From an uncultured Thermoguttaceae bacterium (GTDB lineage Bacteria > Planctomycetota > Planctomycetia > Pirellulales > Thermoguttaceae): 50,413 nucleotides of DNA. The notes under the pieces were generated by a model that saw only the letters and a program-made list of their open reading frames with translations, searched no databases and was not told the origin of the DNA. The position numbers were made by a program, and so were the translations under genes. The stretch is taken from the NCBI GenBank assembly GCA_937951625.1, contig CALFBP010000062.1:1-50413 (forward strand). Direction: 5' to 3'. Positions 2,872 through 22,936 of the stretch are shown here, one piece after another; within the stretch, counting starts at the first letter, position 1; every line of letters begins with the position of its first letter.

Positions 2872-4785
2872 ATGCGCAGGCGGAACGGGCGGCCGCTCGT
2901 GGTCGCCATGACTGCGATTGGGGTTGGCTTGACCGCGGCGGCTTGCGGGGCGCTGTTTCTTATCTTGCGAGATTTGCAAATGCACCCAAGGTCAAGCCAG
3001 GGCGCCCGGCCGCCGGAGACCGGCGCCAGTCCCTCGACCCCAGTTGCAGTCAAAGCTCGCCCCGACTCGGGAGGTCCCGGTGGTCCGCCGGTTCGCGGAA
3101 AGGGATCCCTCCCGACTAGCTCCGGTAGTAGGGGAACGGGCCAGGGCGATTCTTGGGCGGGACCGATTTTGTTGCGGGACGTTACGCGGCAGACGGGCAT
3201 CACCTTTCGACACACCCACGGCGGTTCCGGAAAACAATACATCGTCGAGACGGTGACCACCGGCTTGGCTACTTTCGATTACGATGGCGATGGCCTGATC
3301 GATGTCTATTTTCCCAACGGCAGGCCGCTGCCGGACACCCCAGCCCGGATGCCCGCTCGGAACGCGCTGTATCGCAATCTCGGCCAGTTTCGCTTTCTCG
3401 ACGTGACCGATACGGCCGGCGTTGGCGACGCTGGCTACGGCATGGGATGCGCCGTGGGCGACTACGACGATGACGGCCACCCCGATCTGTACGTGAGCAA
3501 CTTCGGTCCGAATGTCCTCTACCACAATAACGGCGACGGGACGTTCACGGACGTGACCGCCCAGGCCGGCGTGGGCCGCGGGAACAGGGTGGGAGCGGGC
3601 GTCTGTTTTTTGGACATGGACGGTGATGGCGACCTCGACCTGTTCGCCGCCAATTACGTCCAATTCACCTACGATCGTCCTGCCACGCGATACTATGGCG
3701 GCTATCTCCGATATCCTGGCCCACGCGAATTCGAGCCCGAACACCCTAACCTATTCCGCAACCAAGGCGACGGCACGTTCACTGACGTGAGTCTTTCGTC
3801 CGGCGTGGCGGCCGTTGCTGGCACGGGCATGGGTTTGGTCGCCGGCGACTTCGATAACGATGGCGACATCGACCTTTTCGTCGCCAATGACTTGGACGCC
3901 AATTCCTTCTTTCGAAACGAGGGGAACGGCCAATTTCGGGAAGCCGCCGTGGAGGTTGGCCTCGCCTACAACTTCGAGGCTGGGGCCACGGGAAGCATGG
4001 GGGCTGATTGCGGCGATTACGACAACAACGGCTGGCTCGACATCTTCATGACCACCTATCAGGCCGAATTGCCCTGCCTGTTCAAAAACCTCGGTCATGG
4101 CTTGTTCGAGGACGTGACCACCCGGGCCAATGCAGGTGTGGAAACGCTCCCTTACGTCAACTGGGGTTGCGGGCTGGTCGATTTCGATAACGACGGCTAC
4201 AAGGACCTCTATATCGGCAACGGCCACCTCGAGGACTTCATCGACAAGATCGACCGCTCCACCGCCTATGCGCCAGGAAATACGCTTTTGAAAAACCTTG
4301 GCGATGGCCGCTTTGTGAATGTCACGGCGACGGCGGGCGATGGCATGTTGGTTCGCGGCAGCACCCGTGGCGTGGCCTTCGAGGACCTAGACAACGACGG
4401 TTGGATCGATGTCGTGATCCTCCATTCCTCCGCGCCGGCCGCCGTGTTACGAAATGAAACGCAAAACGGCAACCATTGGATTCAACTGAAACTCTGCGGT
4501 GTAAAGACGAACCGCGACGGGGTGGGGGCTCGCGTACGGTTGGTAGCCGGCGACCTGACGCAAATCGACGAGGTCCACAGCGGCCGCGGCTATCAGAGCC
4601 ATTGGGGCTCGCGTCTCCACTTCGGCCTGGGCAAACGCGACCGCGTCGACCGCTTGGAAGTCCGCTGGATCGGTGGCGGCGTCGATGTGTTCGAAGACCT
4701 CCCCGTGGACCGCCTGATCACGCTCTTCGAGGGAGCACAATCAGTATCAGCCGGCGCGGGCCGTGACGGGGCACCGCTGAAGTAG
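2872..4785 (+). CDS. CRTAC1-like protein: FG-GAP/VCBS propeller with C-terminal ASPIC/UnbV domain
   Basis: A 637-residue exported protein. A basic start and hydrophobic segment (about 9-32) form a signal anchor, and a Pro/Gly-rich linker follows. At least seven FG-GAP/VCBS units then carry Ca-binding DxDxDG-type loops, for example FDYDGDGLIDVYF, GDYDDDGHPDLYV, LDMDGDGDLDLFA, GDFDNDGDIDLFV, GDYDNNGWLDIFM, VDFDNDGYKDLYI and EDLDNDGWIDVVI. The C-terminus (NRDGVGARVRLVAGD, then SGRGYQSHWGSRLHFGLG) matches the ASPIC/UnbV domain typical of CRTAC1 proteins. Such proteins are abundant in planctomycetes, but their biochemical role is not established. It lies one base downstream of the TPR gene, the common TPR-CRTAC1 pairing of this phylum. 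Confidence 0.9.
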   Translation: MRRRNGRPLVVAMTAIGVGLTAAACGALFLILRDLQMHPRSSQGARPPETGASPSTPVAVKARPDSGGPGGPPVRGKGSLPTSSGSRGTGQGDSWAGPILLRDVTRQTGITFRHTHGGSGKQYIVETVTTGLATFDYDGDGLIDVYFPNGRPLPDTPARMPARNALYRNLGQFRFLDVTDTAGVGDAGYGMGCAVGDYDDDGHPDLYVSNFGPNVLYHNNGDGTFTDVTAQAGVGRGNRVGAGVCFLDMDGDGDLDLFAANYVQFTYDRPATRYYGGYLRYPGPREFEPEHPNLFRNQGDGTFTDVSLSSGVAAVAGTGMGLVAGDFDNDGDIDLFVANDLDANSFFRNEGNGQFREAAVEVGLAYNFEAGATGSMGADCGDYDNNGWLDIFMTTYQAELPCLFKNLGHGLFEDVTTRANAGVETLPYVNWGCGLVDFDNDGYKDLYIGNGHLEDFIDKIDRSTAYAPGNTLLKNLGDGRFVNVTATAGDGMLVRGSTRGVAFEDLDNDGWIDVVILHSSAPAAVLRNETQNGNHWIQLKLCGVKTNRDGVGARVRLVAGDLTQIDEVHSGRGYQSHWGSRLHFGLGKRDRVDRLEVRWIGGGVDVFEDLPVDRLITLFEGAQSVSAGAGRDGAPLK

Positions 4786-7044: not shown

Positions 7045-8364
7045 ATGCAGTGGCGAAGTCGGCTGACTGCGGATACGCAGCAGGCCTCGCACAAGCAGCG
7101 TGCGGGGCGATGGATCGCCTTGTTGGCGACGGCGGCGCTTGCCGGGCTGGGCGGGTTTTATAGTGCCCATTTTGTATGGAGGGCTGATGCGCCTGCCGTC
7201 GTCACCATGGCGGGACCGAGTCCGATCACAGAAGGGCCTTCGTCTGATGACGACAAGTCCGGCCGCACCGCTCCGCGAGATCGCTTTGCTCAGTCGTCGC
7301 CCCTTGAGAATCTCGCCGGCGTGGGTGATCCCTGCTCGCCTCTTCCCACCACTCCCCAATCTCTTTTGGAAGAGGCGACGCGGGTGACCGAGGCACTCGC
7401 TCAAGCCTTTGCAGACGAGCCGGATGCGCTGGAAGTCGGCGCGCGTCTGCTGCACTGGTTCGGTCGATCGAAGCAAGCGGTCGAGTTGTGGGAGGAGTGC
7501 CTTCGGCTCGATCCTGAGTATGCTCATGCGCACGCGGGTCTGGGTATGGTGGCGGCGGCTCAGGAAGATCACGCCAAGGCGGTGACTTATTTGCGCAAGG
7601 CAGTCGACCTCCAACCAGGAAATTTCCCGGCGCGGGCCTCTCTCGCCAATTCCCTCATCGCCACGAATCAGTCCAAGGAGGCGATCGCGGTCCTCGAAGA
7701 TGCTCAGCGGCGCGACCCCCGCTCGCAAGGCTTTTTTCTCTTAGGGCAGGCTTATACGCAAATCGGGGAACTGGAAAAGGCCCGCGAGAATTTCGAGGCG
7801 GCGATTCAAAAATATCCAGAGTACGGCGAGGCCTATTACCGGCTGGCGACCGTGTACGCCCGGTTGGGGCAACAGGAGAAGGCCCGGCAGGCGATTCAGA
7901 AGTCCCGGGAGTTGAAAGCAGAACAGCGACAGGACGAACGTGTGAAGAGGCAAGAGTACGACGACCTCGACGCCGCACGGCGTCGCGTGGCCGAGACCTA
8001 TACGGAGGCTGCTTCGATTTATTTCACCCGTAAGCGGCGTCGCGAGGCGGAACGGCTTTGGCGACGGGCCGCCCTTTTGGATGCGAAAAACATCGAGTGC
8101 CGGCAAGGATTGGCCTGGCTCTGTTGGGAGCAGCTTCGCGTGCCGGAGTCCATCTCTTGGTTGAAGGAACTGGCCGCCCTGCGCCCCAACGACGCCGCGA
8201 TCTGGTTCGAAATCGGCCGGATGCACGGGGAGTTGAACGAATTTGCCGAGGCCGCCGGGGCGTTAGGAAAAGCCGTTGAATTAGAACCTGGCAACGAAAA
8301 ATACCGCGCGGCCCACGAGTCGGCGAAAAAACAGGCAGCAGGCCGCACACCAAGCAACACGTAG
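7045..8364 (+). CDS. Membrane-anchored TPR protein
   Basis: A 439-residue protein with a hydrophobic anchor at about residues 22-43 following a Gln/Arg-rich start, then a low-complexity linker and a TPR array (for example AHAGLGMVAAAQEDHAKAVT, QGFFLLGQAYTQIGELEKAR, EAYYRLATVYARLGQQEKAR). A charged helical spacer (residues about 285-315) splits it into two TPR blocks, much like the TPR protein at 1452-2870, so the two are probably paralogues. The domain is expected to face the periplasm. It follows the small lipoprotein by three bases. A strong palindrome lies between it and the next gene, so it may end this transcript. Confidence 0.8.
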   Translation: MQWRSRLTADTQQASHKQRAGRWIALLATAALAGLGGFYSAHFVWRADAPAVVTMAGPSPITEGPSSDDDKSGRTAPRDRFAQSSPLENLAGVGDPCSPLPTTPQSLLEEATRVTEALAQAFADEPDALEVGARLLHWFGRSKQAVELWEECLRLDPEYAHAHAGLGMVAAAQEDHAKAVTYLRKAVDLQPGNFPARASLANSLIATNQSKEAIAVLEDAQRRDPRSQGFFLLGQAYTQIGELEKARENFEAAIQKYPEYGEAYYRLATVYARLGQQEKARQAIQKSRELKAEQRQDERVKRQEYDDLDAARRRVAETYTEAASIYFTRKRRREAERLWRRAALLDAKNIECRQGLAWLCWEQLRVPESISWLKELAALRPNDAAIWFEIGRMHGELNEFAEAAGALGKAVELEPGNEKYRAAHESAKKQAAGRTPSNT

Positions 8365-8529: not shown

Positions 8530-10440
8530 ATGCGGATCGCCAACCGAGGGTGGCGCCGCGTGGGGTGGGCAGTGAAGCTTGCCACCCTGATGGTTGGCCT
8601 CTACTTCTATGCCCTGTTGCGCGTGCGAGCAGAATTGTTCTATCAGCAGAGCCCCACTCTGTTTCTTTTGGATTGGGATCATGTCGTCGCCGCACTGGTT
8701 CAAACTGGCTGGGCCGTCGAGTTGGCGTGGACAACCCTCTCGCCATTGTTTCTTATCGACTGGTTGGGCGCACTAATCATCGCCTTGCTAGCCGTGCTGA
8801 TCGTGATGGCCACGCGTTGGATCGTGGCGAACGTGGCAGCCGAATCCGGGTTGGTTCTCAATCTCGTCCCCCTCCTGCCGCTGTGCCTGCTTTTGGGGCA
8901 GTATCAGCACCCAGTGCGCATTGGCGTGGGCCTGTGCGTCGTGTTGGGCCTGACTGGCCTGTACGTCCGCTTCAAGCACTGGCATCGTCTCGCCCGAGGG
9001 CTGCTGTTCCTCATCCTCGCGGCCGTGACTTTTTGGACGGCCGGGGAACTGGTCGGGTTGTTGGTGCTCATGGCCGTCGTCGTGGAATGGCGCGTTCCGT
9101 GTCATGGGGGATGGCGTCGGGTTGGGGCAGCGTTCCTCGCGATCGTGGCGATCGTCGTGGGCGCATGGCTCTGCTTGCGAAGTATTGCGGATGCCTACGC
9201 GGGGCTGTTTTTCCCACAACAGCGGCACTGGCTGGCTACGCCATCGTCCCCCGCGCTGGCTTGGGCAATCCGTGCCGGTCTGTTGCTATCTTTCCCGCTC
9301 GTTGCCGTCGCGGCGAGGTGGTGTGGCCGCCGTCCCGGCTCGATGTTTTTGTCGTCAGAGGCTGCTTTTACTTTGAGACGTTCGGACGATGCGGCCAGCA
9401 TAGCAACGCGGTTCGTGCCAAGCCGTCGGGAAGCTATCTTATCGGTGCTGCTGATCGCGGTGATTGCCGCAGCCGATCTTTTGCTCTTCGACGTCGCCAA
9501 GAAGTACGCGCTTTTGGTCGCTTGGAGCGCCGAGCGCGAGAAATGGGCGGACGTCTTGAAGTTCGCCAATCGTGCCCGGTTGGCCGACGACTGGACCATG
9601 TTTCACGTCCATCGGGCCCTGTACCATCGAGGCGAGCTGCTCGAGCGCATGTTCGAGTATCCGCAGGCGGCAGGGGCGGTGCGTGCTCTGACGCTGCAAG
9701 CGGATAGCCTGATGACGACAGCGCAACGGGCGCCGCTGGAATTCGGGGACATCCTTTTCGAGCTGGGCCGGGTCAACGAATCGCAGCACATGGCTTACGA
9801 GGCCTTGGAAATCTTCGGAGAGCGGCCCCGCACGCTCCAGCGGCTCGTCTACCTGCACGCGATCAAAGGAGAGTTGGAAGCGGCAAGACGTTTTCTGGCG
9901 GTGCTGGAGCGGAGCCTTTTTTACGGCGACTGGGCCCGAGACTTCCTCCATCGCATGGACGCGGACCCGACGCTCTCCGCCGTGCCCTTGGTCGCCAGCC
10001 GCCGCGCGCTCATGGTGGAGCGGGACTACACCGGAAGTCTGGACACGGAGACCATGCTTCTGCACTTACTCGAGCGCAACCCGCGGAACCAAATGGCCTT
10101 CGAGTACTTGATGGCCTACTACTTGCTCACCCGGCAGATCGACACAATCGCCGCGAATCTCAAGGGGTTCGACGCCTTTGGCCGGTCCCACTTGCCGCGG
10201 CACTGCGAGGAGGCGATCTTGATCCATGGGAGTGGGAGAGGTTCGCTCGGCGTGAAGCTGGCGGGACGGGAAATCCGTTTGGAAACGCGGCGGCGCGCGG
10301 AACAATTCGCGCAGGCCCTCAGTCGCGTGGGTGCGGGATCGGTCGAGGCTGCCGCGGCGCTTTATCCGGAGTTCGGCGACAGTTATTTTTTCTTCTACGT
10401 GTTTGGGCGGAGCGGCCCGCGGTACTCTCCACGAAAGTGA
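8530..10440 (+). CDS. DUF6057-like multi-pass membrane protein, copy 1
   Basis: A 636-residue protein. The first ~340 residues contain about eight hydrophobic segments, and the last ~300 residues form a soluble helical domain. That domain contains the conserved blocks VNESQHMAYEALEIF, then NPRNQMAFEYLMAYYLLTRQ and LPRHCEEAILIHG. These match, from memory, the DUF6057 proteins of Bacteroidetes, whose function is unknown. ATG 8530 is chosen over GTG 8488 because GGAGAGG lies nine bases upstream. The stop is four bases before the haem-propeller gene. A second copy of both genes follows at 11996-15522. No catalytic residues can be assigned. The architecture resembles a membrane enzyme or assembly factor with an extracytoplasmic helical domain. 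Confidence 0.78.
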   Translation: MRIANRGWRRVGWAVKLATLMVGLYFYALLRVRAELFYQQSPTLFLLDWDHVVAALVQTGWAVELAWTTLSPLFLIDWLGALIIALLAVLIVMATRWIVANVAAESGLVLNLVPLLPLCLLLGQYQHPVRIGVGLCVVLGLTGLYVRFKHWHRLARGLLFLILAAVTFWTAGELVGLLVLMAVVVEWRVPCHGGWRRVGAAFLAIVAIVVGAWLCLRSIADAYAGLFFPQQRHWLATPSSPALAWAIRAGLLLSFPLVAVAARWCGRRPGSMFLSSEAAFTLRRSDDAASIATRFVPSRREAILSVLLIAVIAAADLLLFDVAKKYALLVAWSAEREKWADVLKFANRARLADDWTMFHVHRALYHRGELLERMFEYPQAAGAVRALTLQADSLMTTAQRAPLEFGDILFELGRVNESQHMAYEALEIFGERPRTLQRLVYLHAIKGELEAARRFLAVLERSLFYGDWARDFLHRMDADPTLSAVPLVASRRALMVERDYTGSLDTETMLLHLLERNPRNQMAFEYLMAYYLLTRQIDTIAANLKGFDAFGRSHLPRHCEEAILIHGSGRGSLGVKLAGREIRLETRRRAEQFAQALSRVGAGSVEAAAALYPEFGDSYFFFYVFGRSGPRYSPRK

Positions 10441-10444
10441 GGCA

Positions 10445-11977
10445 ATGATTCGTTGGGTATTGTTCCTCGGACTTGGCTTCGCGGCGTTGGCGGGGGCCTG
10501 GTGGCTTGTGGGTTGGGGGGGCGCGACGAGGGGAGATCTGGCCTTGGAGGCCATGTCTGCCGTTGCCCGGCCTCCACGCATCGAGCCTGACTACGCGGGC
10601 ACGGTGATTCCCCCCAACATCGCGCCGTTGAACTTCCGCGTGGAAGAGCCGGGCGAGGAGTTTTGGGTACGAATCCACGCCGATCAGGGCGAACCGATCG
10701 AAATTACCAGCCGAAGCGGCGTGATCCAGATCCCGCCGCGAACGTGGCGGCAGTTGTTGGAGCTTAACCGTGGCGGACAGCTAGCCTTTCAAGTTTGTGT
10801 GCGTGACTCGGAAGGGCAATGGGTCCGCTTCGAGCCGCTGGAAAGCACCATCGCCGCGGCCGACATCGACCGTTACCTCTGCTACCGGCTCATCCGGCCG
10901 ATTTATATCGTCCGCGTCAACGTGGCGATCTACCAACGCGACGTGGAGACCTTCGAGGAATCGGTGGTGGTGAACAATCAGTCGTTCGGGCGGGGCGGGG
11001 GGTGCGTCAATTGTCACGCCTTCGCCCCCGGCCATCCCCAGCAGATGATCCTTCATTCTCGGGGATCGGGCGATCTTGCCGACTTAAACGGCATGATCGT
11101 GGTGCATCAAGGCCGCGTGAAAAAGATCGATACCCGAAAGCAAATCCGCGAGCCTGCCTTCCGCCGTGGCCGCCTGACGAAATCGCTGGCTGGCTATGTG
11201 GCCTGGCACCCCAACGGGCGGTTGGCCGCCTTCGCCGCCGGCGAGATGATGCAATTCTTTCACGCCGTAGGCGAGAATCGGGACGTTTTCGACGGCGAGT
11301 CCGACTTGGCCTTGTACCACGTCGATTCCGACACGGTCACTACCGTACCGCAGATTTCCCGGGTCGATCGCGTGGAGACCTTTCCCGCCTGGTCGCCCGA
11401 GGGGAAGTATCTCTACTTCTGTAGCACGGATCCGGTGCCGAAGGATCGCTTTCGCGAAGTCCGCTACGACTTGATGCGGATCCGCTATGACCCGGATTCG
11501 GATCAATGGGGCGAAGTCGAGCCGCTGCTGTTGGCCAAGGAGACGGGAAAGAGCATTGTGGAGCCGAGGGTGTCTCCCGACGGCCGGTGGCTGCTGTTCT
11601 GCATGTGCGAGTACGGCGAATTCCCGCCCTTCCAGCCTTCGAGCGACCTGTACCTGATGGACCTCGCCACGCGGGACTATCGGCGGCTGGAAATCAACAG
11701 CCCCCAGAGCGAGTCGTGGCACAGTTGGTCCAGCAACGGCCGGTGGATCGTGTTTGCCAGCAAGCGTCGCGATGGGATTTTCGCCCGACTCTACTTCAGT
11801 TACATCGACGAACAAGGCCGCGCCCATAAGCCGGTGCTGCTCCCGCAGAAGGACCCCACCTTCTACGACCGGTTCTTGAAGACGTACAATGTCCCGGAGT
11901 TGGTCCCGTGGCCGGTCCCGGCGTCGGAACGTGCGCTCGTGAGGGCCATTTGCGGATCGGCCGACTCGTCGCCATGA
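10445..11977 (+). CDS. Membrane-anchored haem c/TolB-PD40 propeller protein, copy 1
   Basis: A 510-residue protein with an N-terminal anchor (residues about 4-23), an extracytoplasmic beta domain containing IPPNIAPLNFRVEEPG (about 55-70), and a single c-type haem site GGCVNCHAF (CxxCH at 187-191). A PD40/TolB-like propeller follows (FPAWSPEGKYLYFCS, VSPDGRWLLFCM, WHSWSSNGRWIVFAS). The NIAPLNF block plus one CxxCH plus TolB repeats matches Bacteroidetes proteins often labelled TolB-like or cytochrome c biosynthesis protein; no activity is established. The start ATG 10445, with GAGG overlapping the upstream stop, is preferred over an upstream in-frame start inside the DUF6057 gene. Co-translated with its membrane partner, it is probably one subunit of a periplasm-facing redox or sensing complex (inference). 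Confidence 0.82.
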   Translation: MIRWVLFLGLGFAALAGAWWLVGWGGATRGDLALEAMSAVARPPRIEPDYAGTVIPPNIAPLNFRVEEPGEEFWVRIHADQGEPIEITSRSGVIQIPPRTWRQLLELNRGGQLAFQVCVRDSEGQWVRFEPLESTIAAADIDRYLCYRLIRPIYIVRVNVAIYQRDVETFEESVVVNNQSFGRGGGCVNCHAFAPGHPQQMILHSRGSGDLADLNGMIVVHQGRVKKIDTRKQIREPAFRRGRLTKSLAGYVAWHPNGRLAAFAAGEMMQFFHAVGENRDVFDGESDLALYHVDSDTVTTVPQISRVDRVETFPAWSPEGKYLYFCSTDPVPKDRFREVRYDLMRIRYDPDSDQWGEVEPLLLAKETGKSIVEPRVSPDGRWLLFCMCEYGEFPPFQPSSDLYLMDLATRDYRRLEINSPQSESWHSWSSNGRWIVFASKRRDGIFARLYFSYIDEQGRAHKPVLLPQKDPTFYDRFLKTYNVPELVPWPVPASERALVRAICGSADSSP

Positions 11978-11995
11978 ACTCTTCATGAAGGCCAG

Positions 11996-13975
11996 TTGAG
12001 AAAGGCTTTGCGTAGGAAGCGGATGACGCCTGCGGAAGTTGCGTGCGAAGCCCAATTCCGGGTTGGCCAGGAACGCGATAGAGCTCGCGTGTGGCTGGTC
12101 CAGGTCGTTGGTCTTGCGTTCGTGTGGGGCTACATCTGGCTGGTGATCGACCCCAGATTGATCTATGACGCCTTTGGCATTTACCTCCCCTACCCGGAAT
12201 GCCCGCTGGACGCGGCCTTCGTGCGCGAGACATGCTCCCGGCCGGGCGGTCCGGTGGATTATGTGTCCGCCTTGCTTTCCCAAGGGTTTTACTTCCCGGT
12301 CCTGGGGTCTTTCGTGGTCGCGGCGGTGTCCGGGCTGCTCTGCCTGGCCACGAACCGGTTGTTCTTCGACATGGGTTGGGAAGGCGGTTGGTTGCTGGGC
12401 CTGGCGCCTGCCGTGGGCATTGTGGCCATGTATCGGACGTATCAGCATCCGCTGGCGCCGCTATTGGCCTTGGCGGCGTGCCTATGGATGACCGCGGTAT
12501 TTCAAAAGCTGCCGACGGGAATTGGCGGCTTCGTGCGCGTGGGACGTGCCGTGGTGTTTCTCGTGGCGTGCGTGGGCCTTTACTGGTTAGCCGGCACCGT
12601 GTGCGTTCTTTTCGGTCTATTGGTCGGCGTTTGGATGGCTTGCGTCAAACGCCGCTGGTTGGCTGCTGCGGCCGCCGTTGCGGCAAGCGCCGTGACGCCC
12701 TGGCTCATCGGCACGCGGTGGTATTACATGACCGCGACGGAGGCCTACTGCGTGATCTGGCCGTTCGGACCGGGAAGCTGGTCCGACATGGAACCGTTGC
12801 CGCTGGCGATCTTGCAAGGGCTTTTTCTGTTTCCCCTCGCCATGGTGGGAATCTTGGGATTGCGAAACTTGTTGCCGCAAGGTCTCCAGAATCGCTTGAC
12901 GGCGTTTGCGTGGTGGAGGAGGCCGATCCTTGGGACGGTGACCAGCTTGGCCACCTTGGCCCTGGCGTTGTGGCTGGTTCACGTGATCGTGCGAGCTCCG
13001 CATCGCGAGGTGCGTTTCAAGATGGTCCATTTCGCGCGGATGCGGGAGTGGGAGGAGGTGTTGCAGGCGGCGCGGCAGCTCCGCAGCTCAGGCCACGATT
13101 ATTTTTCCCAACACTTGGTGAATCGGGCTTTGTTTCACACCCGACAGCTTGGCGACGGGATGTTCGCGTTTTCCCAGGATCCCTCCTCGCTGCTTTTGCT
13201 AAGCGGCGATGTGCCTCACGCACCGCCCAAGTTCTGGATGCTTTCGGAGATCGCCTGGGAGCTAGGGGACTTGAATCTTGCGGAGCAGTGGGCCTTCGAA
13301 CGCCTCGAGGCCGTGGGCGAGTGCCCCGACGCCCTGGAATTGTTGGCCCTGATAAGTTTGCGGAAGGGCCAAACCCTGACGCCCTCGGTCCTGGAGCAAG
13401 ACCTGCTGGCCTCCAGCCGCCAGACCGCACGCATGTTCCTTCGCAGAATGCGAAAAAACTTGCTGCACCGTCGCCATGCCGAGGCCTTGCTCGAGGCGAT
13501 CGAGCGGATGCCCCTGAAAGGATCAATGTGGCCAGGCAATGGCCTGCCTGGCTTGCGCTGTGAGGATCGAACCTTTCAAACGTGCTCCGAGGAGCTGATG
13601 TTGGAAAACTTGCTGGCGGCCAACCCCGGCAACCAGATGGCGTTCGAGTATTTGATGGCCTACTATCTTTTGAGTCGCCGTCCAGACCGATTGGTACAGC
13701 ATCTGCCGCGGGTGAAGGACTTTGGCTATCGTGAGATCCCCCGCCACTATGAAGAGGCCATCTTGATCCACGGCGCCGGGACGGCGACGGAGCCGACGAT
13801 CCCAGGGCTCAGCATCCGCCCTGAGACCGCCCAGAGGTTCCAGCGATTTGCGGCTCGCTTCCAAGCCTCGCGGAACCAGCCGTGGTTAGCGGCTGCTGAC
13901 CTGGCCGAGGAGTTCGGCGATAGTTACTTCTATTACCACGTGTTTGGCGTCTCGGGGGTGGGACGGGCGCGATGA
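11996..13975 (+). CDS. DUF6057-like multi-pass membrane protein, copy 2
   Basis: A 659-residue paralogue of the protein at 8530-10440. It has several hydrophobic segments in the first ~340 residues, then the same helical C-terminal domain with NPGNQMAFEYLMAYYLLSRR and IPRHYEEAILIHG, and the same ending (FGDSYFYYHVFG versus FGDSYFFFYVFG). The N-terminus is longer and charged before the first membrane segment. The start is uncertain: TTG 11996 has GAAGG four bases upstream, and ATG 12023 is the alternative. It lies 18 bases after the copy 1 propeller gene and overlaps the copy 2 propeller gene by an ATGA junction, so all four genes are likely one transcript. Confidence 0.78.
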   Translation: MRKALRRKRMTPAEVACEAQFRVGQERDRARVWLVQVVGLAFVWGYIWLVIDPRLIYDAFGIYLPYPECPLDAAFVRETCSRPGGPVDYVSALLSQGFYFPVLGSFVVAAVSGLLCLATNRLFFDMGWEGGWLLGLAPAVGIVAMYRTYQHPLAPLLALAACLWMTAVFQKLPTGIGGFVRVGRAVVFLVACVGLYWLAGTVCVLFGLLVGVWMACVKRRWLAAAAAVAASAVTPWLIGTRWYYMTATEAYCVIWPFGPGSWSDMEPLPLAILQGLFLFPLAMVGILGLRNLLPQGLQNRLTAFAWWRRPILGTVTSLATLALALWLVHVIVRAPHREVRFKMVHFARMREWEEVLQAARQLRSSGHDYFSQHLVNRALFHTRQLGDGMFAFSQDPSSLLLLSGDVPHAPPKFWMLSEIAWELGDLNLAEQWAFERLEAVGECPDALELLALISLRKGQTLTPSVLEQDLLASSRQTARMFLRRMRKNLLHRRHAEALLEAIERMPLKGSMWPGNGLPGLRCEDRTFQTCSEELMLENLLAANPGNQMAFEYLMAYYLLSRRPDRLVQHLPRVKDFGYREIPRHYEEAILIHGAGTATEPTIPGLSIRPETAQRFQRFAARFQASRNQPWLAAADLAEEFGDSYFYYHVFGVSGVGRAR

Positions 13976-15522
13976 GGAAGAGGTGGACAATTGTTCTTAT
14001 CATGGTAGGAGTCGCGGTGGTGGGGACCGTGGCCACGACGCTTATTTTTTCCCGGCCGCTCGACGAGGCCGCGTTGGCTGAAGCTCGCTTGATCGCCCGA
14101 CGGCCACGCATCCAGCCCGAGTACTTCGACGTCGTCATCCCGCCCAACATCGCTCCGCTAAACTTCCGGATCGAAGAATCGGGCGATCAATTCGTCGTGA
14201 GGATCCATGCGGTTAAGGGCGGAGCGGTGGAAATCGTCAGCCGCTCGCCCGAAATTGTGATTCCTCCCGGAGCGTGGCGCCGCCTGCTCATGGAGAACCG
14301 CGGAAATACGCTGACCATCGACGTCTTCGTGCGCCGCGAAGCGGCTTGGTGGCGATACGGAAGCTTGAAGAATCGCATCGCTGAAGAGGAGATCGATAGC
14401 CATATCGTTTACCGGCGATTGCGTCCCGATGCCTTGTATTATCGCACGATCGGCATCTACCAGCGGGATTTGGAAAGCTACCGGGAATCGGCGGTGCTCG
14501 ATGGGCGTTGGTTCGGCGAAGGCTGTGTGCATTGCCACGCCTTCCAGGAGCGCAACCCCGCCCGCATGTCGTTGAACTTCCGCGGAAGGTACGGCGACGG
14601 CTGTCTTTTCGCTCATGACGGGCAGATTCACACGCTGGCGGCGCGGTTGGGGCACGCGGCCTGGCATCCCAGCGGTAAGGTTGTCGCTTTCTCCCGCTTC
14701 GACATCCAATTGTTTTACCACACGGCGCGGATGCAGACCCGCGATGCGATGGATTCCAATTCCGACCTGGCCTACTATCGGCTGGACCGCCGGGAGTTGA
14801 AAACCGTGGCCGCCATTGCGGACCCGTTTCAATTAGAAACCCAGCCAAGCTGGAGTCCCGACGGCAGGTATCTCTATTTTGCCAGCGCAGCGAAGCTCTG
14901 GCCGGACTACGTGACCTTTCCCAGCGAGTATTTTTCTCGCCTCCGCTACGACCTGAAACGCGTGCGGTACGACGTCGAAGCGGACCGATGGGGGCCTGTG
15001 GAAACCGTGCTTTCCGCCGAGCAGACGGGCAAGAGCAACGCGAATCCGCGGGTCTCGCCCGATGGACGATTCCTGCTCTTTACCCTTTGCGACCACGGCA
15101 ACTTCGCCTTGTATCAGCCGGAGAGCGATTTGTACGTGCTGAACCTGGAAGATGGCAAATATCGGAAACTGGAATGCAACAGCGAGTTCGCCGAGTCCTG
15201 GCATTCGTGGTCGAGCAACGGGCGTTGGATCGTTTTCAGTAGCAAACGCCCCACGGGCATTTTTACCCGACTGTATCTGGCATACTTGGATTCAGACGGC
15301 CGCGCCGCCAAGCCATTCCTTCTACCTCAACGCGATCCTGGTTTCTACGACGATTTCCTCGGCTTGTACACGCTTCCGGAGTTTGTTGACGGGCCGATCG
15401 CCGCGTCTCCTCGGGCCTTGCTGAGCGCAGTACGCGACACGAACCGGGTGCCCGTGGAGGACATCTTTCGCATGGGCCCCGCACGATCGCCATCTGGGCA
15501 CGACCGACTTCGCCCCGAGTGA
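13972..15522 (+). CDS. Membrane-anchored haem c/TolB-PD40 propeller protein, copy 2
   Basis: A 516-residue paralogue of 10445-11977. It has an anchor at about residues 5-27, VIPPNIAPLNFRIEESG near residue 55, one haem site EGCVHCHAF (CxxCH at 185-189), and the same propeller blocks (QPSWSPDGRYLYFAS, VSPDGRFLLFTL, WHSWSSNGRWIVFSS). The four-base ATGA overlap with the upstream DUF6057 gene indicates translational coupling. The two copies share architecture but differ over much of the sequence, so the duplication is old and the copies may have different partners or substrates. It is the last gene of the plus-strand group; the next gene is convergent. Confidence 0.82.
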   Translation: MRKRWTIVLIMVGVAVVGTVATTLIFSRPLDEAALAEARLIARRPRIQPEYFDVVIPPNIAPLNFRIEESGDQFVVRIHAVKGGAVEIVSRSPEIVIPPGAWRRLLMENRGNTLTIDVFVRREAAWWRYGSLKNRIAEEEIDSHIVYRRLRPDALYYRTIGIYQRDLESYRESAVLDGRWFGEGCVHCHAFQERNPARMSLNFRGRYGDGCLFAHDGQIHTLAARLGHAAWHPSGKVVAFSRFDIQLFYHTARMQTRDAMDSNSDLAYYRLDRRELKTVAAIADPFQLETQPSWSPDGRYLYFASAAKLWPDYVTFPSEYFSRLRYDLKRVRYDVEADRWGPVETVLSAEQTGKSNANPRVSPDGRFLLFTLCDHGNFALYQPESDLYVLNLEDGKYRKLECNSEFAESWHSWSSNGRWIVFSSKRPTGIFTRLYLAYLDSDGRAAKPFLLPQRDPGFYDDFLGLYTLPEFVDGPIAASPRALLSAVRDTNRVPVEDIFRMGPARSPSGHDRLRPE

Positions 15523-15615: not shown

Positions 15616-17301
15616 TTAGTCCGTCGCCTCCCACGGGCGGCGGAGGCGTCGCAGACGCAGCATCTCCGCAGCGCGGTCCTCGCGACCGGCGGCACGATAG
15701 CCCACGGCCATGCCGCCCAGAAGGTCTTGTTGGATCGCGTCGAGGCTCAAATCCGCGAAGATCTTCTGTTCCTCGGCAGAGAGCGAGGCGAAAGTTTGGG
15801 CGATCCGTGCTTTCACTCTTGCGGCCTGAAGGCCGCTATCCGGCGCCAAGCTCAACGGCCAGGCCTGGACCACCATTAGGGCGAAGGTGTCCGCGGCCAG
15901 CCGATCGAAGGGCGTCACGCCCAAAAGGGCGTCGCGACGGGCCACATCCGAAACGCGCTCGCTCTGCCAGGGGCGGCGGAGGATTTGTTCCTGAATGTGT
16001 TGACCCAGGATCAACGCCACGCGCCAATTTCCCTCCAAATTGTAATGCACGTGCTCCAGGAAAAAGTCCTCTCCCGGCGCCGGGAACTGGGAAAGCTCGC
16101 GCAACCGGGCGGCCACATCGCAGAATCCCACGGAATCAGCCCCCTCGGAAGCGACTTGCTGAACGACCGTATGAAAAGCGCTGGGCGCCCGAAACCGACA
16201 TCCGTCCAAATCAGCGGCCAGCGTGTAGGCCGCGGCGGCCGCCTCCCTGTGGCCTAATGCCTCCAAGCATTGCGCCTGGCGATACGCCAAAATGGCCGAG
16301 TCTGGGTCCATCTGGCGGGCAGTCGTCAGGGCCGCCAACGACGCCTCGTACTCGCGGTACGAAGCGTGACGCTCTGCGGCTTGGAGCAACTCGTTCAACT
16401 TTTTCCGCTGCTCCTCGGTCAGATCGGTTCGCGAAAGCGAGTGCATCGGACTCTGATCGCGAAGATTGCAGGGAACCGTCGTCAAAAGAATGGAGATCTC
16501 GGCGTCTGCCGCGAGCCGAACCATCTCGCGCAAGTGGTCCTCGTATGCCTTCAATGCCCTGGCGAAAATTGGCCCGTTCTGGGGAATGGCGATGTCGGCG
16601 GGAAAGGTCTCTTGGGGATGGCCCCGCAGCGGTCGTGGGAGGAGGAGCCCAGCCAACTGAAACACCCGCTGATGCCTTAAGAAATGCAACAAGGGATGGA
16701 ACTGCGGGACGAAGGCGCTGGCCGTGGAAGCCGCGCCCCCAGGCCCATAAAACTCGTTGTGGCCCGAGTGTACTACGATCAAGTCCGGTTCACAGGCGAT
16801 CGCTTGTCGCACGAGATCCACTTCGCTGAGCGTGTTGATGGCCGTGATCCCCGCATTGAGCACCTCGAACTTCTGCTCCGGCGATTGCTGCTCCAGCACG
16901 ACCTGAAGCTGCCGCGGCATGGCTAGTTCAAAAGGGTAGGGGAAGCCAGCGACCGTCGAGCCCCCGACCACCACGATCCGGTAAATCCCTGGGGGCTTCG
17001 GCAGCACGAACGGCCGCGGTTCCGGTCCCAACAAATCCATGCGACCGTAATAGGCGCGGTCCGCCGCGGGATTCAAGCGATGCGTGCCCCAGGTGGTCGG
17101 CTGCGGAATAGGTTCGACGAGCCGCGGGTTGTGCCCAAAACCCACCAGACGCAAGCCGAGCTCCAGGAGCACCAAGGGCGACAAGGACAAGGCCACCGCG
17201 GCGATGCGAAAAGCCCACGTGCGCCACCCCCCGCGGCAAGCTGACCGGGGAATACCACCTGCTCTCTTCGATTCGGACGTGCTCGTCGCGTTCCTGCTCA
17301 C
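15616..17301 (-). CDS. Membrane-anchored SGNH/GDSL hydrolase with TPR-like insert
   Basis: A 561-residue protein with one N-terminal hydrophobic anchor (about 31-52) and an SGNH hydrolase domain. Block I is VVVGGSTVAGF with Ser115 as nucleophile. A glycine block (LNAG) follows, then block III SGHNEFYG with Asn182, and block V EHVHYNLEG with Glu416 and His419 in the usual D/E-x-x-H spacing. Residues ~310-365 look like one or two TPRs inserted in the domain. The family includes esterases and acyl hydrolases; the substrate is unknown. The open frame continues to 17916 inside the cytochrome gene, but GTG 17301 with GGGGAAGG upstream gives a proper anchor and clears the cytochrome stop by 52 bases. 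It is last in the minus-strand cytochrome group, an unusual partner for haem proteins. Confidence 0.82.
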   Translation of the reverse strand: MSRNATSTSESKRAGGIPRSACRGGWRTWAFRIAAVALSLSPLVLLELGLRLVGFGHNPRLVEPIPQPTTWGTHRLNPAADRAYYGRMDLLGPEPRPFVLPKPPGIYRIVVVGGSTVAGFPYPFELAMPRQLQVVLEQQSPEQKFEVLNAGITAINTLSEVDLVRQAIACEPDLIVVHSGHNEFYGPGGAASTASAFVPQFHPLLHFLRHQRVFQLAGLLLPRPLRGHPQETFPADIAIPQNGPIFARALKAYEDHLREMVRLAADAEISILLTTVPCNLRDQSPMHSLSRTDLTEEQRKKLNELLQAAERHASYREYEASLAALTTARQMDPDSAILAYRQAQCLEALGHREAAAAAYTLAADLDGCRFRAPSAFHTVVQQVASEGADSVGFCDVAARLRELSQFPAPGEDFFLEHVHYNLEGNWRVALILGQHIQEQILRRPWQSERVSDVARRDALLGVTPFDRLAADTFALMVVQAWPLSLAPDSGLQAARVKARIAQTFASLSAEEQKIFADLSLDAIQQDLLGGMAVGYRAAGREDRAAEMLRLRRLRRPWEATD

Positions 17302-17353
17302 CGTGCCACGACCTTCCCCTTGAAGACCGCCCGAATCTCCCGACTGGCGTTGT

Positions 17354-18508
17354 CTACCGTGCCGTCGCTGGCTTGCGGCGAATCCGATGATCGTGCCGCT
17401 TACCCTCGCGGTCCGTTTCCACGGCGGGCATGTGGCAACGCACGCAATCCGCCGCGGGCGAAACGGGGCATGAGACCGTATTGGCCGCGCCGTGGCATTC
17501 CAGGCATCGCTGCACGTAGCCGGCCGTGTCGGATGCGATGGGCGCGTGCGGATCATGACAGGTCGAGCACGCCAGACGGTCTTCCGACTGCGTAAAACAC
17601 CGGCTTTGCAGCAATTCGGCGGCCTGAAGGCGGACACTGCGGAAATGATCCGGCAGGGCCTTGAACTCGTTTGCCGCGTCGGCCTGGACGTGGCATTGGC
17701 TACAGGCGCGAATCTCTTCGATGGCGGAACGTTTCGGCCGGGGCAAACTGGGCCGACCTCGGGACTGCGCCTCGCGCATCGCCGTGGCGTGCTCGCGGCC
17801 GGGGCCGTGGCATTTCTGACAGCCCACGTTTGGCTCGAGACCTTGAATGTCTTGGTCGCGGACCTCTCCCCGCATGGCATGACAGTCCAGGCAACGGACC
17901 AGAAGGACCGGGTCAAGAACCCGACCGAAATGTTCTACCTGTTGTGCCGGAGCCTGGTCCGTGTGGCCGGGGGTCAGCTCGAAGGCAATACCATTCCCCT
18001 CCACGCGGACCGAGACGCGATGTTCGATGGCCGAGGTCCCGCCCAAGCGATTGGGAATCAAACTCAGGAAACTTACGCGACGCCTTCCCGAGCCGAAGGC
18101 GTACATCAGCGGAAAAGGATCGTTGCCGAACCGCTCGGGAAGGGTCGCGGCAAGCCCTTCGTTGGGGGCGAAATGGTAGTGGTATGTAACGCCGCGTTGC
18201 GGGTCTTTGAAGCTGGTTTTGTCAAGTCGGGCGGCGTCCGACCAGTCCGCGGCACGGCGAAGGGTTTGGGCGTGACCCGTTTGCGCATGGCTTGCCGCTT
18301 GTTGGGGATGGCACTCCGCGCACAGGTTCTCATCCACGTACAAGCCGAAGCCGGGCGGGACACTGGCCAGCACTGCCTCGGCCTGGCGCAAGGCCCGCTG
18401 CTCCGCAGGGCCAAGCCTCAACACCATCGCCGCCAGCGCCGCCAATCCGGCGATGGCCAGCCATAAAGCGATTTTCGTCCGTTGGCTAAAGATTCGTTGA
18501 TCACGCAT
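17354..18508 (-). CDS. Seven-haem c-type cytochrome, membrane-anchored
   Basis: A 384-residue protein with an N-terminal anchor (about 12-32) and seven CxxCH motifs starting at residues 63, 206, 230, 269, 314, 335 and 355. The last is CVRCHMP followed by DHRIR, the ending typical of cytochrome c554-like and TPR-associated multihaem proteins. Residues 65-205, between haem 1 and haem 2, form a haem-free domain. It is predicted to carry electrons in the periplasm. It starts at ATG 18508, overlapping the upstream TPR stop by one base (GTG 18511 is also possible), so it is translationally coupled to that TPR protein. Electron donor and acceptor are unknown. No cytochrome maturation genes lie in the window. 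Confidence 0.88.
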   Translation of the reverse strand: MRDQRIFSQRTKIALWLAIAGLAALAAMVLRLGPAEQRALRQAEAVLASVPPGFGLYVDENLCAECHPQQAASHAQTGHAQTLRRAADWSDAARLDKTSFKDPQRGVTYHYHFAPNEGLAATLPERFGNDPFPLMYAFGSGRRRVSFLSLIPNRLGGTSAIEHRVSVRVEGNGIAFELTPGHTDQAPAQQVEHFGRVLDPVLLVRCLDCHAMRGEVRDQDIQGLEPNVGCQKCHGPGREHATAMREAQSRGRPSLPRPKRSAIEEIRACSQCHVQADAANEFKALPDHFRSVRLQAAELLQSRCFTQSEDRLACSTCHDPHAPIASDTAGYVQRCLECHGAANTVSCPVSPAADCVRCHMPAVETDREGKRHDHRIRRKPATAR

Positions 18509-19557
18509 CACGGCGTCCGTTGTCTCGCCCGGCGAATACGCTGGACGTGCTGCCGGAATTTTTCCGCCTCTTCCGATTTCCCAGCCGCGGCCGCCGCCTG
18601 GGCCAAGAGGGAAACCAGACGCAATTCGTCGGGATACCTCTCATAGAGCGGCACGAGCCGCTCGTATGCCTTGTCCCCCTGACGTTCGAAAAGCAACAGC
18701 TCGGCTTCCAAGAGCCGACAGTTGATGTCGTCGGGAGCGAGCTTCAAGGCCTTTTCGATTTCGGCCTTGGCCTCCTCGTGCCTCCCTTGGTCTCGCGCCG
18801 CCGCGGCCAACCACCGTCGGGCATGGACATCGTTGGGGTTACGGGTCAAGCACCACACGGCCTCCCGCCGCGTCTCCGCCGGCTGACCTGTCTTGCCGTA
18901 GGCATAGCATAAATTCAAGTGCGCCGCGTAATTCTCGGGTTCCCGATCCAACACCGCAAGCAAGGGCGGAATCATCTCCGCATGGCGATCCAAGTCATCG
19001 TACAGCTCCGCCAGAAGAAAATGGGCGCCCGTGAGGGAAGGATCGAGCTGTACAGCCCGTTGCGCGCGAGCAAGCGCCAGCGAGAGCTCCCGTTGCCGGT
19101 GAAAAATTTGGGCCAAGGAGAATTGCACCCAGGCATCCTCCGGATGCAGCGGCTCCAAGGCCAATAGCGACTCTTTCGCCTCGCGATCGCGCCCCAGGGC
19201 GAGGCAGATCCGCGCAAGCAGTCGCAACGCCTCACCATGTTCCGCGGCCTCCGGCGGGATCTTGCGGAGTTCAACGAGCGATTGGGCGGGATCGATGCCC
19301 TCCAAAACGGCAGCCAGCTCCAACCGCGCCTGCCAATCGCGGGGATGCTCGGCCAAATGCAGCATGTAACCTTCAACGGCTAAAGGCAATTGACCTCCCG
19401 CAATGGCGGCTTGCGTGATTTGTAAAGGACTCGGCCGCCGCAGCCAGGCCACCAGCGACACCGCTGCCCAAACGACTGCCGCCAGAGCGAGCACCTGACA
19501 CAACCGCTCGATGCGGCTTGCTTCGTTTTTTGAACCTGAGCGTGCGCCGCTCGTCAT
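18508..19557 (-). CDS. Membrane-anchored TPR protein
   Basis: A 349-residue protein with a hydrophobic anchor (about 18-38) and then TPR units through the C-terminus (for example AWVQFSLAQIFHRQRELSLA, AAHLNLCYAYGKTGQPAETR, and a final unit near LVSLLAQAAAAAGKSEEAEK). It has no catalytic motif. It is coupled to the seven-haem cytochrome by a TGATG junction, so it likely acts as its docking or assembly partner. It sits 119 bases downstream of the dihaem cytochrome gene on the same strand. Confidence 0.8.
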   Translation of the reverse strand: MTSGARSGSKNEASRIERLCQVLALAAVVWAAVSLVAWLRRPSPLQITQAAIAGGQLPLAVEGYMLHLAEHPRDWQARLELAAVLEGIDPAQSLVELRKIPPEAAEHGEALRLLARICLALGRDREAKESLLALEPLHPEDAWVQFSLAQIFHRQRELSLALARAQRAVQLDPSLTGAHFLLAELYDDLDRHAEMIPPLLAVLDREPENYAAHLNLCYAYGKTGQPAETRREAVWCLTRNPNDVHARRWLAAAARDQGRHEEAKAEIEKALKLAPDDINCRLLEAELLLFERQGDKAYERLVPLYERYPDELRLVSLLAQAAAAAGKSEEAEKFRQHVQRIRRARQRTP

Positions 19558-21235: not shown

Positions 21236-22936
21236 ATGAAGATCAGAACAGGCAGGCGATTTTTCGCACTCCTTTTAAGCGGGTTTATCGTGGCGACCTG
21301 CGGGCTGGTGACGTGGGTCGTGGGGTGGCGTTGGTTCGGCCGCGGATTGGAAACGCCCTCTTCGGACTTGCAGGCAGTTCCGTCAAAAACAAACGATAAC
21401 ACAGCCTTAGAGACCCGGATTCGTGCCTTTTGCGGCGATTGCCACGCCCTGCCGCGGCCAGAGAGCTTCCCCCGTGATGCTTGGCCAGCCGAGGTCGAGA
21501 AAGCCTACCGGAAATATGAGGATTCGGGCCGTACCGATCTGGATCCGCCTCTGCTGGGTCAGACGATCGAGTTCTACCGTTCCCGCGCGCCGGAAGTCCT
21601 TTCCTACCCAGAACCGAAAGAGGCCGAGAGGCCATTCCGCGCTAAGTTTCAACCGGAAACATTCGAGCTGGATGCAGAACAAACGGGGCCGTCGGCGATT
21701 GCCGGCCTATGCTGGACCTCGCTCGGATCGACGAATAGTGCATCGCCAAGTCGCGTGGCCGGCAAAGCAAGCGATTCGCACCGGTCGTCCGGGGAGTCGA
21801 ACACAAGGACCGATTCCCCCGATCAACAGACCGAAGGCCGCCCGGTCCTTGTGGCCAGCGACATGTTCTCGGGCCGTGTGGTGGCATTGGACCTTGCCAG
21901 CCCAAGACGCCCGGTACGCCTTTTGGTTCAAATGAACCATCCGTGCCACGTCGAGCCATGCGACCTCGACGGCGATGGAGCAACCGACCTCCTGATCGCC
22001 GACCTGGGAAGCTACGACGTCCGCGACCATGATCTGGGCCGCGTGGTCTGGTTGCGGCAGGACAAGCAAATGGGCCGCTTCGCGGAGCATGTCCTTGCCT
22101 CCGGACTAGGCCGCGTGGCCGATGCCCGGCCGATTCCCCTCGATACCAACGGGACATTCGGCATTGTGGTGGCGGAATTCGGATATTTTCGCACGGGGAG
22201 CGTCTTGCTGTTGACGAACGCAGCTCCTCCCGGCAAACCGATGCACTTCGAGCCCCGGGTTTTGGACCCGCGTGCCGGTGCGATCCACGTCCCGGTGTGC
22301 GACCTGGATGGCGACGGCCTTGCTGATTTCCTCGCTCTGATCAGCAACGAAAGCGAATGCGTCGAGGCCTTTTTGCAGCGTGGCCAAGGACAGTTTCATC
22401 GCCAGACACTTTGGAGAGGTCCGGACCTCTCGTTCGGCTCCAGTGGGATTGAGCTGGTCGATTTGGACGGCGACGGCGATCTGGATGTCCTTTACACGAA
22501 CGGGGATTCGTTCGACAACATGTACGTCACCCCCTGGCACGGCCTCCAATGGCTGGAAAACTTGGGAGGCGTTCGGTTCAAGTATCATCGATTGACAGAC
22601 ATGTCCGGGGCGTGCGTGGCGCGAGCCGGCGACTTTGACGACGACGGGGATTTGGACATCCTCACGGTCGCCTTCCTCCCCACCGCCTTAAAACCGCAAT
22701 GGCTCGCAGAGCAACCGTTGCCCTCGATCGTGCTATTGGAACAGACGTCGCCGCGCAAGTTCGTGCGGCACACGTTGGAGAAGGGATTCCCTTGCCATGC
22801 GGCGATTGTCGTTGCTGACTTCAATCGGGACGGTCGTCTCGATTTCGCCGTCGGCAACCATGCCGGGGGACATCGCGCCAAGGAGCTTGGGAGGACTTGG
22901 CTAACGGTCTGGTGGAATCGCGGCCCGCCTTTATAG
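21236..22936 (+). CDS. FG-GAP/VCBS propeller with N-terminal single haem c site
   Basis: A 566-residue protein with an anchor (about 8-31), then a small haem-binding segment with FCGDCHALPRPESF (CxxCH at 66-70). A long FG-GAP/VCBS domain follows with Ca-binding-type loops (CDLDGDGATDLLIA, CDLDGDGLADFLAL, VDLDGDGDLDVLYTN, GDFDDDGDLDILTV, ADFNRDGRLDFAVG). A Ser/Thr/Asp-rich low-complexity stretch (about 160-200) separates the parts. Haem-plus-VCBS proteins of this kind are seen in planctomycetes, usually unnamed, and the role is unknown. It is divergent from the dihaem cytochrome gene. It lacks the ASPIC/UnbV tail found in the two CRTAC1 proteins of this window. Confidence 0.8.
   Translation: MKIRTGRRFFALLLSGFIVATCGLVTWVVGWRWFGRGLETPSSDLQAVPSKTNDNTALETRIRAFCGDCHALPRPESFPRDAWPAEVEKAYRKYEDSGRTDLDPPLLGQTIEFYRSRAPEVLSYPEPKEAERPFRAKFQPETFELDAEQTGPSAIAGLCWTSLGSTNSASPSRVAGKASDSHRSSGESNTRTDSPDQQTEGRPVLVASDMFSGRVVALDLASPRRPVRLLVQMNHPCHVEPCDLDGDGATDLLIADLGSYDVRDHDLGRVVWLRQDKQMGRFAEHVLASGLGRVADARPIPLDTNGTFGIVVAEFGYFRTGSVLLLTNAAPPGKPMHFEPRVLDPRAGAIHVPVCDLDGDGLADFLALISNESECVEAFLQRGQGQFHRQTLWRGPDLSFGSSGIELVDLDGDGDLDVLYTNGDSFDNMYVTPWHGLQWLENLGGVRFKYHRLTDMSGACVARAGDFDDDGDLDILTVAFLPTALKPQWLAEQPLPSIVLLEQTSPRKFVRHTLEKGFPCHAAIVVADFNRDGRLDFAVGNHAGGHRAKELGRTWLTVWWNRGPPL

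Follow-up and report, generated by a model that had tools for sequence, protein, structure and literature searches.

The stretch of DNA considered here (the window, 50,413 nucleotides (nt) in full) is a contig assembled from an uncultured Thermoguttaceae bacterium, a member of the Planctomycetota. At positions 8530-15522 it carries four genes, all on the forward strand, in the order A1-B1-A2-B2 (Table 1), where A stands for a membrane protein of the DUF6057 family and B for a propeller protein with one CxxCH motif. A1 and B1 are 4 nt apart and A2 and B2 overlap in an ATGA; the 18 nt between B1 and A2 hinge on the choice of the A2 start, as an in-frame ATG at 12023 is an alternative to the TTG at 11996. 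This order and these gaps had been proposed from the letters alone, in what we shall call the sequence-only reading, and they are confirmed, granted the TTG start; the blocks which it saw shared by the copies, NPxNQMAFEYLMAYYLL and PRHxEEAILIHG in A1 and A2, IPPNIAPLNFR in B1 and B2, are present in the sequences.

The same reading took A to be DUF6057-like and B to be a propeller with a single CxxCH, and Pfam agrees. A1 and A2 score 306.5 and 272.7 bits against PF19529 (DUF6057), for a gathering cut-off of 29.8, and cover the model over most of its length, which makes them clear members of the family; B1 and B2 score 71.6 and 71.9 bits against PD40, with CVNCH at residue 187 of B1 and CVHCH at residue 185 of B2. 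The similarity of the copies is far beyond chance: B1 and B2 align at 47% over 481 columns (E 1e-151), and A1 and A2 at 36% over the C-terminal 320 columns (BLASTP, E 3e-42), their membrane halves not being aligned by BLASTP beyond chance fragments. At E up to 1, no Pfam family besides DUF6057 was reported for A1 or A2, so that TMEM260/PMT families (PF11028, PF13231 and kin) are without a match, nor was the hydrazine synthase alpha family PF18582 reported for B. No cytochrome c Pfam family matches in the scan of B1 and B2, and their scores against the TolB equivalog TIGR02800, 37.7 and 44 bits, lie far under its curated cut-off of 343.15. A sequence search of solved structures returned tetratricopeptide repeat (TPR) proteins for A and propellers (Atu1656, acyl-peptide hydrolase, TolB) for B; a hydrazine synthase entry is not among the matches listed for B, an absent row that excludes nothing.

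DUF6057 was named in no paper found, its Pfam model being that of a family of unknown function, and a description of the A-B module was not found among the papers listed by searches of a literature collection which covered few subscription papers. The family is already catalogued without a function; the module appears undescribed, and in kind it is probably a membrane-anchored haem c complex. In the genome of the window, a third A-B pair lies on a different contig, and a larger protein contains a B-like match.

Table 1. Genes and motifs of the module and of its neighbours, in window coordinates
Feature	Position	Strand	Basis or remark
A1, DUF6057 protein, 636 aa (amino acids)	8530..10440	+	PF19529 E 5.9e-91; model pLDDT (predicted local distance difference test) 85.3
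B1, 510 aa: hydrophobic N-terminal anchor, N-terminal beta domain, one CxxCH, TolB-like propeller	10445..11977	+	PD40 E 4.3e-20
CVNCH of B1, residues 187-191, predicted haem c site	11003..11017	+	motif conservation
A2, DUF6057 protein, 659 aa from TTG 11996	11996..13975	+	PF19529 E 1e-80
B2, 516 aa, built like B1; start overlaps A2 stop (ATGA)	13972..15522	+	PD40 E 3.4e-20
CVHCH of B2, residues 185-189, predicted haem c site	14524..14538	+	motif conservation
TPR protein upstream of A1; neighbour, not an established module member	7045..8364	+	TPR families
GDSL-like protein, convergent with B2	15616..17355	-	match under Pfam cut-off; open frame to 17916, 5' end unsettled
Multihaem cytochrome, seven CxxCH, neighbour	17354..18511	-	CxxCH count, Pfam

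Linkage and matched evolution of A and B

Relatives were gathered from both ends, by a B-seeded scan of named genome contigs, which gave 19 loci in Planctomycetota and Bacteroidota where titles tell, and by a DUF6057-seeded scan. Matches above the DUF6057 cut-off turned up in only 5 of the 392 planctomycete genomes scanned and in 3 of 296 from the phylum of Prevotella, and the family is therefore uncommon. Weaker matches in these phylum scans, many of which we take to be FtsW-like and some transporter-, TPR- or GT39-like, were treated as noise after inspection by script; they are uninformative on kinship with the GT-C glycosyltransferases discussed below. The survey comprises 40 loci with 47 A-like open reading frames (ORFs) and 48 B at a threshold of 150 bits. 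For every one of these 47 A-like ORFs a same-strand B lies no more than 405 nt away, and for 42 the closest B is a downstream one. Among the other five, L095 (Prolixibacteraceae) has a genuine B-A order, the A of L092 belongs to an array and is followed by a B of its own, and L015, L112 and L097 are, in our reading, cut, truncated or masked. Seen from B, 46 of 48 have an A within 400 nt; of the two others, that of L021 borders on masked sequence and that of L023 lies where its contig ends. The survey of neighbourhoods that the sequence-only reading had proposed thus finds A and B linked in both phyla.

The coupling is tight: from A stop to B start the distance is -14 to +22 nt in 38 of 39 pairs (the remaining one being without a start codon), with an overlap of 4 nt in 20 of the 38, although short distances are favoured by the choice, as B start, of the in-frame ATG or GTG nearest to the A stop. 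Modules can form arrays: one planctomycete has three full pairs together with part of a fourth A. In one Prevotella genome seven ORFs match DUF6057. Some copies are incomplete. B is split across two frames in a Pirellulaceae contig (L026 7983-8683), and three sites in a single planctomycete genome (L012 7608-7875, L099 7142-8054, L097 6430-7159) have an intact B next to which no more than a C-terminal part of A was found; decay, masking or assembly error may account for these.

Distances in the A and B trees correlate with a rho of 0.908 over 35 of the 39 pairs, four having been left out as short or masked, and none of 2000 free permutations reaches this value. It is worth emphasizing the outcome of partner swaps among paralogues of the same genome (six genomes, 21 pairs), a test that matters because species history is held constant: again none of 2000 reaches 0.908, the mean being 0.857. 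It fits with each paralogous pair keeping its own partner, which agrees with an earlier suggestion that the two copies may be specialised for different partners. Within A, it is the TPR half that tracks B more closely (partial rho 0.59, against 0.25 for the membrane half), which hints at an interface there, though differences in rate could also explain it. In the trees, A1B1 is nearest to L113, then to L100, and A2B2 is nearest to L101, all of them modules of Ca. Anammoximicrobium, where some 21 kb of a single contig separate L100 from L101, which are on opposite strands. As each copy groups with a different Ca. Anammoximicrobium module, the two are old paralogous modules: what had been read as a tandem duplication holds insofar as two A-B modules do stand in tandem, and a recent duplication is rejected.

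Predicted folds, sidedness and the CxxCH site

The model of B (21 sequences, pLDDT 86.8) was compared with known structures using VIA-align, which ranks TolB, a Tol-Pal system protein, first (Z 27.4, with 275 residues aligned between positions 48 and 489); among the matches listed, twelve TolB rows have Z 25.8-27.4, a putative TolB has 21.4 and all others are at or below 20.9. TolB is not in Foldseek's own top 50 for B, which holds many other propellers. B is predicted from this model to have a TolB-type propeller fold and, unlike TolB, it has a CxxCH, an anchor and a DUF6057 partner, besides scoring far under the TolB cut-off. The propeller range of B1 is 142-490, and the CxxCH (187-191) falls early in it; no cytochrome domain distinct from the propeller is seen in B. 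The conservation of the motif, on which the sequence-only reading had staked its case, is complete from planctomycetes to Prevotella: it is there in 44 of 44 B that cover the site, the 45th sequence examined being a fragment. A hydrophobic N-terminus is found in 38 of 38 B, of which 9 of 10 from Bacteroidota and 4 of 28 others have a lipobox pattern, and B is accordingly shaped, as far as its N-termini predict, for export out of the cytoplasm.

What the motif binds has to be approached through its surroundings. A cytochrome c assembly match (PF01578) is found in 13 of 13 module genomes tested, a count that is weak by itself because the family is common in control genomes. Stronger support than these counts comes from a planctomycete genome (G284), in which ORFs matching ResB (E 3.6e-12) and CcsA-type PF01578 (E 4.1e-28) lie directly upstream, on the same strand, of an A-B-A-B array followed by the Rid-like gene described in the next section. 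This support for a haem site is indirect. Taken with the invariance of the motif, we find it quite likely that B carries a covalent haem.

The model of A (22 sequences, pLDDT as in Table 1) shows, as we read it, about nine membrane helices in residues 1-320 of A1, followed by a TPR arm at about 338-625, TPR proteins matching residues 338-484 or so. Across 35 sequences the density of lysine and arginine is 0.17-0.26 in putative inner loops against 0-0.07 in putative outer loops, which predicts a GT-C layout, with the N-terminus inside and the TPR arm outside the cytoplasm; the location of B and of this arm outside the cytoplasm, claimed earlier, is thus borne out as a prediction from N-termini and loop charge. 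Among the matches listed for residues 2-334 of the model, the sole polytopic membrane chains are GT-C enzymes (yeast STT3, 8age, Z 10.7; Pmt2, 6p25, Z 10.4; STT3A, 8b6l, Z 8.9), over 275-293 residues and with Z in the range of chance helical matches, which for helical bundles lies below about 13 according to the guidance of the comparison tool. Profile comparison of A gave 12% for GT39, 6% for TMEM260, 2% for WzyC, 0.2% for FtsW and 0% for MFS, next to 0-1.9% for reversed alignments (for MFS, 1.9% reversed exceeds 0% forward); the positive control, GT39 against TMEM260, reached 99%, a figure inflated by the presence of at least one genome place in both sets.

The O-mannosyltransferases TMTC1-4 and TMEM260 resemble A in that they combine a polytopic N-terminal half with a C-terminal TPR half outside the cytoplasm; TMEM260 has TPR as well. 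Unlike them, A has no TMEM260/PMT Pfam match, its partner carries a haem motif, and the acidic motif is not conserved. PMC6801728 ascribes this motif, of DxD, DD or DE type, to all GT-C enzymes and places it in their first luminal loop, which follows the first membrane helix; of 39 A sequences, 20 and 22 have an acidic residue in the two columns of this loop that are richest in such residues, and in the A alignment the membrane half has no His, Met or acidic column that is conserved throughout. What the present work adds to DUF6057 is a usual partner, B, a GT-C-like base and a TPR arm.

Two other kinds of protein are close to B in design. Hydrazine synthase alpha and its non-anammox homologues have, like B, a CxxCH and a propeller in one chain. 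PMC12758564 gives for hydrazine synthase alpha an N-terminal propeller and then a haem domain; B differs in that its CxxCH comes early within the propeller range and that it lacks PF18582, and the B profile matches HzsA-like proteins (113 columns, 72%) outside the CxxCH. On domain order and the lack of PF18582, B as a homologue of hydrazine synthase alpha is rejected. Further, four proteins unite CxNCH, PD40 propeller and TPR array within a single chain: one in the window genome (L105, 972 aa) and three in Ca. Anammoximicrobium (L103, 950 and 762 aa; L100, 872 aa). As in B, the motif precedes the propeller; the TPR array is on the propeller chain, whereas in the A-B module it is on the membrane protein. 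These fusions hint that propeller and TPR surface work together, the TPR being supplied by A in the two-gene module.

A Rid-like gene and the wider neighbourhoods

A third gene, C, encodes a Rid-like protein, distantly related to the FkbO/Hyg5 chorismatases (39.7-62.1 bits in 6 of 6 scanned, for a cut-off of 325). It adjoins the module in 7 of 38 loci, in both phyla, six times on the same strand and once convergently. C is found in 5 of 5 planctomycete genomes with DUF6057 against 42 of 387 others (Fisher 2e-5), and for Bacteroidota the sampled genomes give 3 of 3 and 3 of 293 (Fisher 5e-6), these tests being blind to genome kinship and the whole-genome search for C leaving out G393, G395, G396 and G397. 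Only three of the five planctomycete cases are strong, since the C of the window genome is also present in G167 and G357, members of the family where no DUF6057 was found, which speaks against a tie between the two, and since the C of G139 is a frame of 121 aa at a contig end; two of the eight genomes with both C and DUF6057 are therefore weak evidence.

C is met in other company too. In planctomycetes without DUF6057 matches it stands beside HzsA-like and HzsBC-like genes (L228 4697-11007, L234 6415-13380), a context established with Pfam and NCBIfam matches on L228 and by BLAST clustering for L234, L224, L225 and L231. It clusters with PSCyt2/PSD1 and DUF1501 genes at L220 8005-16214, L227 7331-16292 and L232 2630-8965, with a WD40 gene in two of the three; L220 was scanned, L227 and L232 were placed by clustering. 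In a Prevotella genome (G392) an unlinked Rid-like gene lies near a di-haem oxidoreductase gene and an imelysin gene (L230 7976-14124). Hydrazine-synthase-like enzymes have been suggested to form a broader family (PMC10732223). These contexts suggest that C may be a helper common to several haem-propeller systems.

The other neighbours of the module include genes for SusC/SusD, DUF4369, an esterase, a Na/Ca exchanger, PPDK, DNA polymerase, PAS and MFS/spermine synthase proteins, and a pathway common to them was not found. In two Prevotella genomes (L091 6378-14943, L092 1188-13973) a TonB-dependent receptor gene, a SusD-family gene and a gene for a protein of about 245 aa without Pfam match precede A-B on the same strand. 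Around the window module, the GDSL-like gene has a BLAST relative in the same convergent layout at L101, the Ca. Anammoximicrobium relative of A2B2, where a gene with similar cytochrome Pfam matches also occupies the relative place of the seven-CxxCH cytochrome; the block formed by a TPR gene, a multihaem-type cytochrome and the GDSL-like gene extends over 15616-19557 in the window and 779-5271 in L101. The window further carries nearby a cytochrome c with two CxxCH and an FG-GAP protein with one. FG-GAP proteins flank the module at 2872-4785, 21236-22936 and 24968-26971, two of them with an ASPIC/UnbV domain; FG-GAP/CRTAC1 genes are reported beside hydrazine-synthase-like genes of other bacteria in PMC12758564.

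A proposed two-subunit complex and its alternatives

Linkage, gene coupling, matched evolution, motif conservation and predicted folds and sidedness are the computed features that any interpretation has to accommodate, and from these we infer contact between A and B, attachment of haem, a substrate and a reaction. The explanation which we prefer, and which taken as a whole we regard as slightly favoured, is that of a two-subunit, membrane-anchored monohaem c complex acting at the outer face. A and B would be the two subunits. B would be an unusually built c-type protein with one haem, its CxxCH lying early within the range of a TolB-type propeller; an N-terminal anchor would keep it at the outer face of the cytoplasmic membrane or, in Bacteroidota, it would carry a lipoprotein signal instead. 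A would provide a polytopic base, weakly resembling GT-C transferases, and a TPR arm outside the cytoplasm on which the propeller of B might dock; the haem would then carry out redox or ligand chemistry, or pass electrons, for a substrate located between the TPR arm and the membrane base. The parts of this proposal differ in strength: that A and B form a cognate complex is quite likely, and a role for the haem in chemistry or in a redox relay, rather than in sensing or pure scaffolding, falls just short of an even call.

Several observations weigh against this proposal. Two short DUF6057 ORFs (391 and 395 aa), from the same two Prevotella genomes as L091 and L092, exceed the Pfam cut-off at 80 and 47 bits, yet no B lies within about 15 kb of them; they come from outside the 40 loci and bring the overall tally to 47 of 49 A-like ORFs with an adjacent B. 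The A profile built here detects just one of them. Both directly follow a gene of alpha-amylase/branching-enzyme type (L235 4845-8061, L236 7568-10940). A short, B-less form of DUF6057 therefore exists and some forms of A act without B, so that a fully strict linkage is rejected: the strict pairing of the sequence-only reading holds as tight coupling in nearly all cases and fails for these two diverged proteins, which weaken the word 'obligate' for the family as a whole and leave the odds for the full-length pair unchanged. Co-evolution of linked genes can, besides, reflect joint inheritance without contact. On the side of the haem, there is no invariant second ligand, three other His columns being filled in 42, 39 and 42 of 45 sequences, and PF01578 is also present in 9 of 14 control genomes. 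On the side of A, the GT-C likeness is a lead only, because the Z values are weak, the profile scores low (that for GT39 is the global one and falls to 5% in local comparison) and Foldseek gives the model no match with E of 0.001 or below and lists no GT-C chain among its top 50; some TPR matches, moreover, stretch over the membrane half with a large root mean square deviation. Finally, no pathway is pinned down, since the wider neighbours vary by genome.

The alternatives differ in which half of the module they put to work. If A were a GT-C glycosyltransferase with a TPR arm for its acceptor, in the manner of TMTC and TMEM260, B would be a redox or haem-sensing regulator. PMC7801869 describes the same layout, N-terminus in and TPR out, for TMTC; the matches listed for A include no polytopic membrane chain other than GT-C enzymes, GT39 tops the profile ranking at 12%, and the alpha-amylase-type genes next to the short B-less proteins, together with the SusC/SusD genes next to some modules, provide a glycan setting. 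Yet DUF6057 is the only Pfam family found for A1 and A2 at E up to 1, and we consider an active GT-C enzyme in A distinctly unlikely, and this account built upon it equally so. A simpler role for A would be to anchor B, with the haem passing electrons between the membrane and multihaem cytochromes. This is suggested by the seven-CxxCH and two-CxxCH cytochromes and the one-CxxCH FG-GAP protein of the window, and by the cytochrome gene kept in place beside the A2B2 relative at L101; against it stand the lack of any cytochrome family among a dozen or so Prevotella neighbour genes scanned, a part of all neighbours, and of any invariant His, Met or acidic position across the membrane half of A, and we think it unlikely.

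The haem of B could instead detect oxygen, nitric oxide or redox state and signal through the TPR arm of A to adjacent surface systems, and the seven DUF6057 ORFs with different neighbours in one Prevotella genome would suit such a reusable sensor; no intracellular output domain is predicted in A, however, where inner loops average about 10-20 residues, and a sensor appears unlikely to us. There may also be no haem at all, the CxxCH forming a disulfide or a metal site in a structural, TolB-like scaffold. B lacks a match to any Pfam family of cytochromes c, and a CxxCH alone does not fix its ligand, since hydrazine synthase has one whose His binds zinc rather than haem iron (PMC12607021). The conservation of the motif in all 44 sequences, its His included, the ResB and CcsA-type genes beside A-B in one genome and the cytochrome c assembly protein in all 13 module genomes go the other way, and make this scaffold quite improbable.

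A wider picture can be drawn around the two-subunit haem complex, as a conjecture that we would rate as improbable. A-B would be a so far unrecognised class of periplasmic haem enzyme, whose GT-C-like base lost its sugar-transfer residues and whose TPR arm presents the substrate to a covalent haem set in a TolB-type propeller, and it would share its Rid/chorismatase-like helper with the hydrazine-synthase-like complexes of planctomycetes, several haem-propeller systems thus belonging to one wider chemistry that reaches the Prevotella of the gut. Whatever the fate of this conjecture, a family for which no described role was found now has full-length members that come with one dedicated haem-motif partner, in two phyla and, in Prevotella, in many copies. 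An orphan domain, DUF6057, is thereby placed in a complex that can be put to the test and whose cofactor, sidedness and interface are predicted. Should B indeed bind haem, its TolB-type propeller would hold a haem c with no cytochrome domain around it, in our judgement an uncommon kind of cofactor site. The Rid/chorismatase-like gene tied both to A-B and to hydrazine-synthase-like loci may give a second handle on its chemistry.

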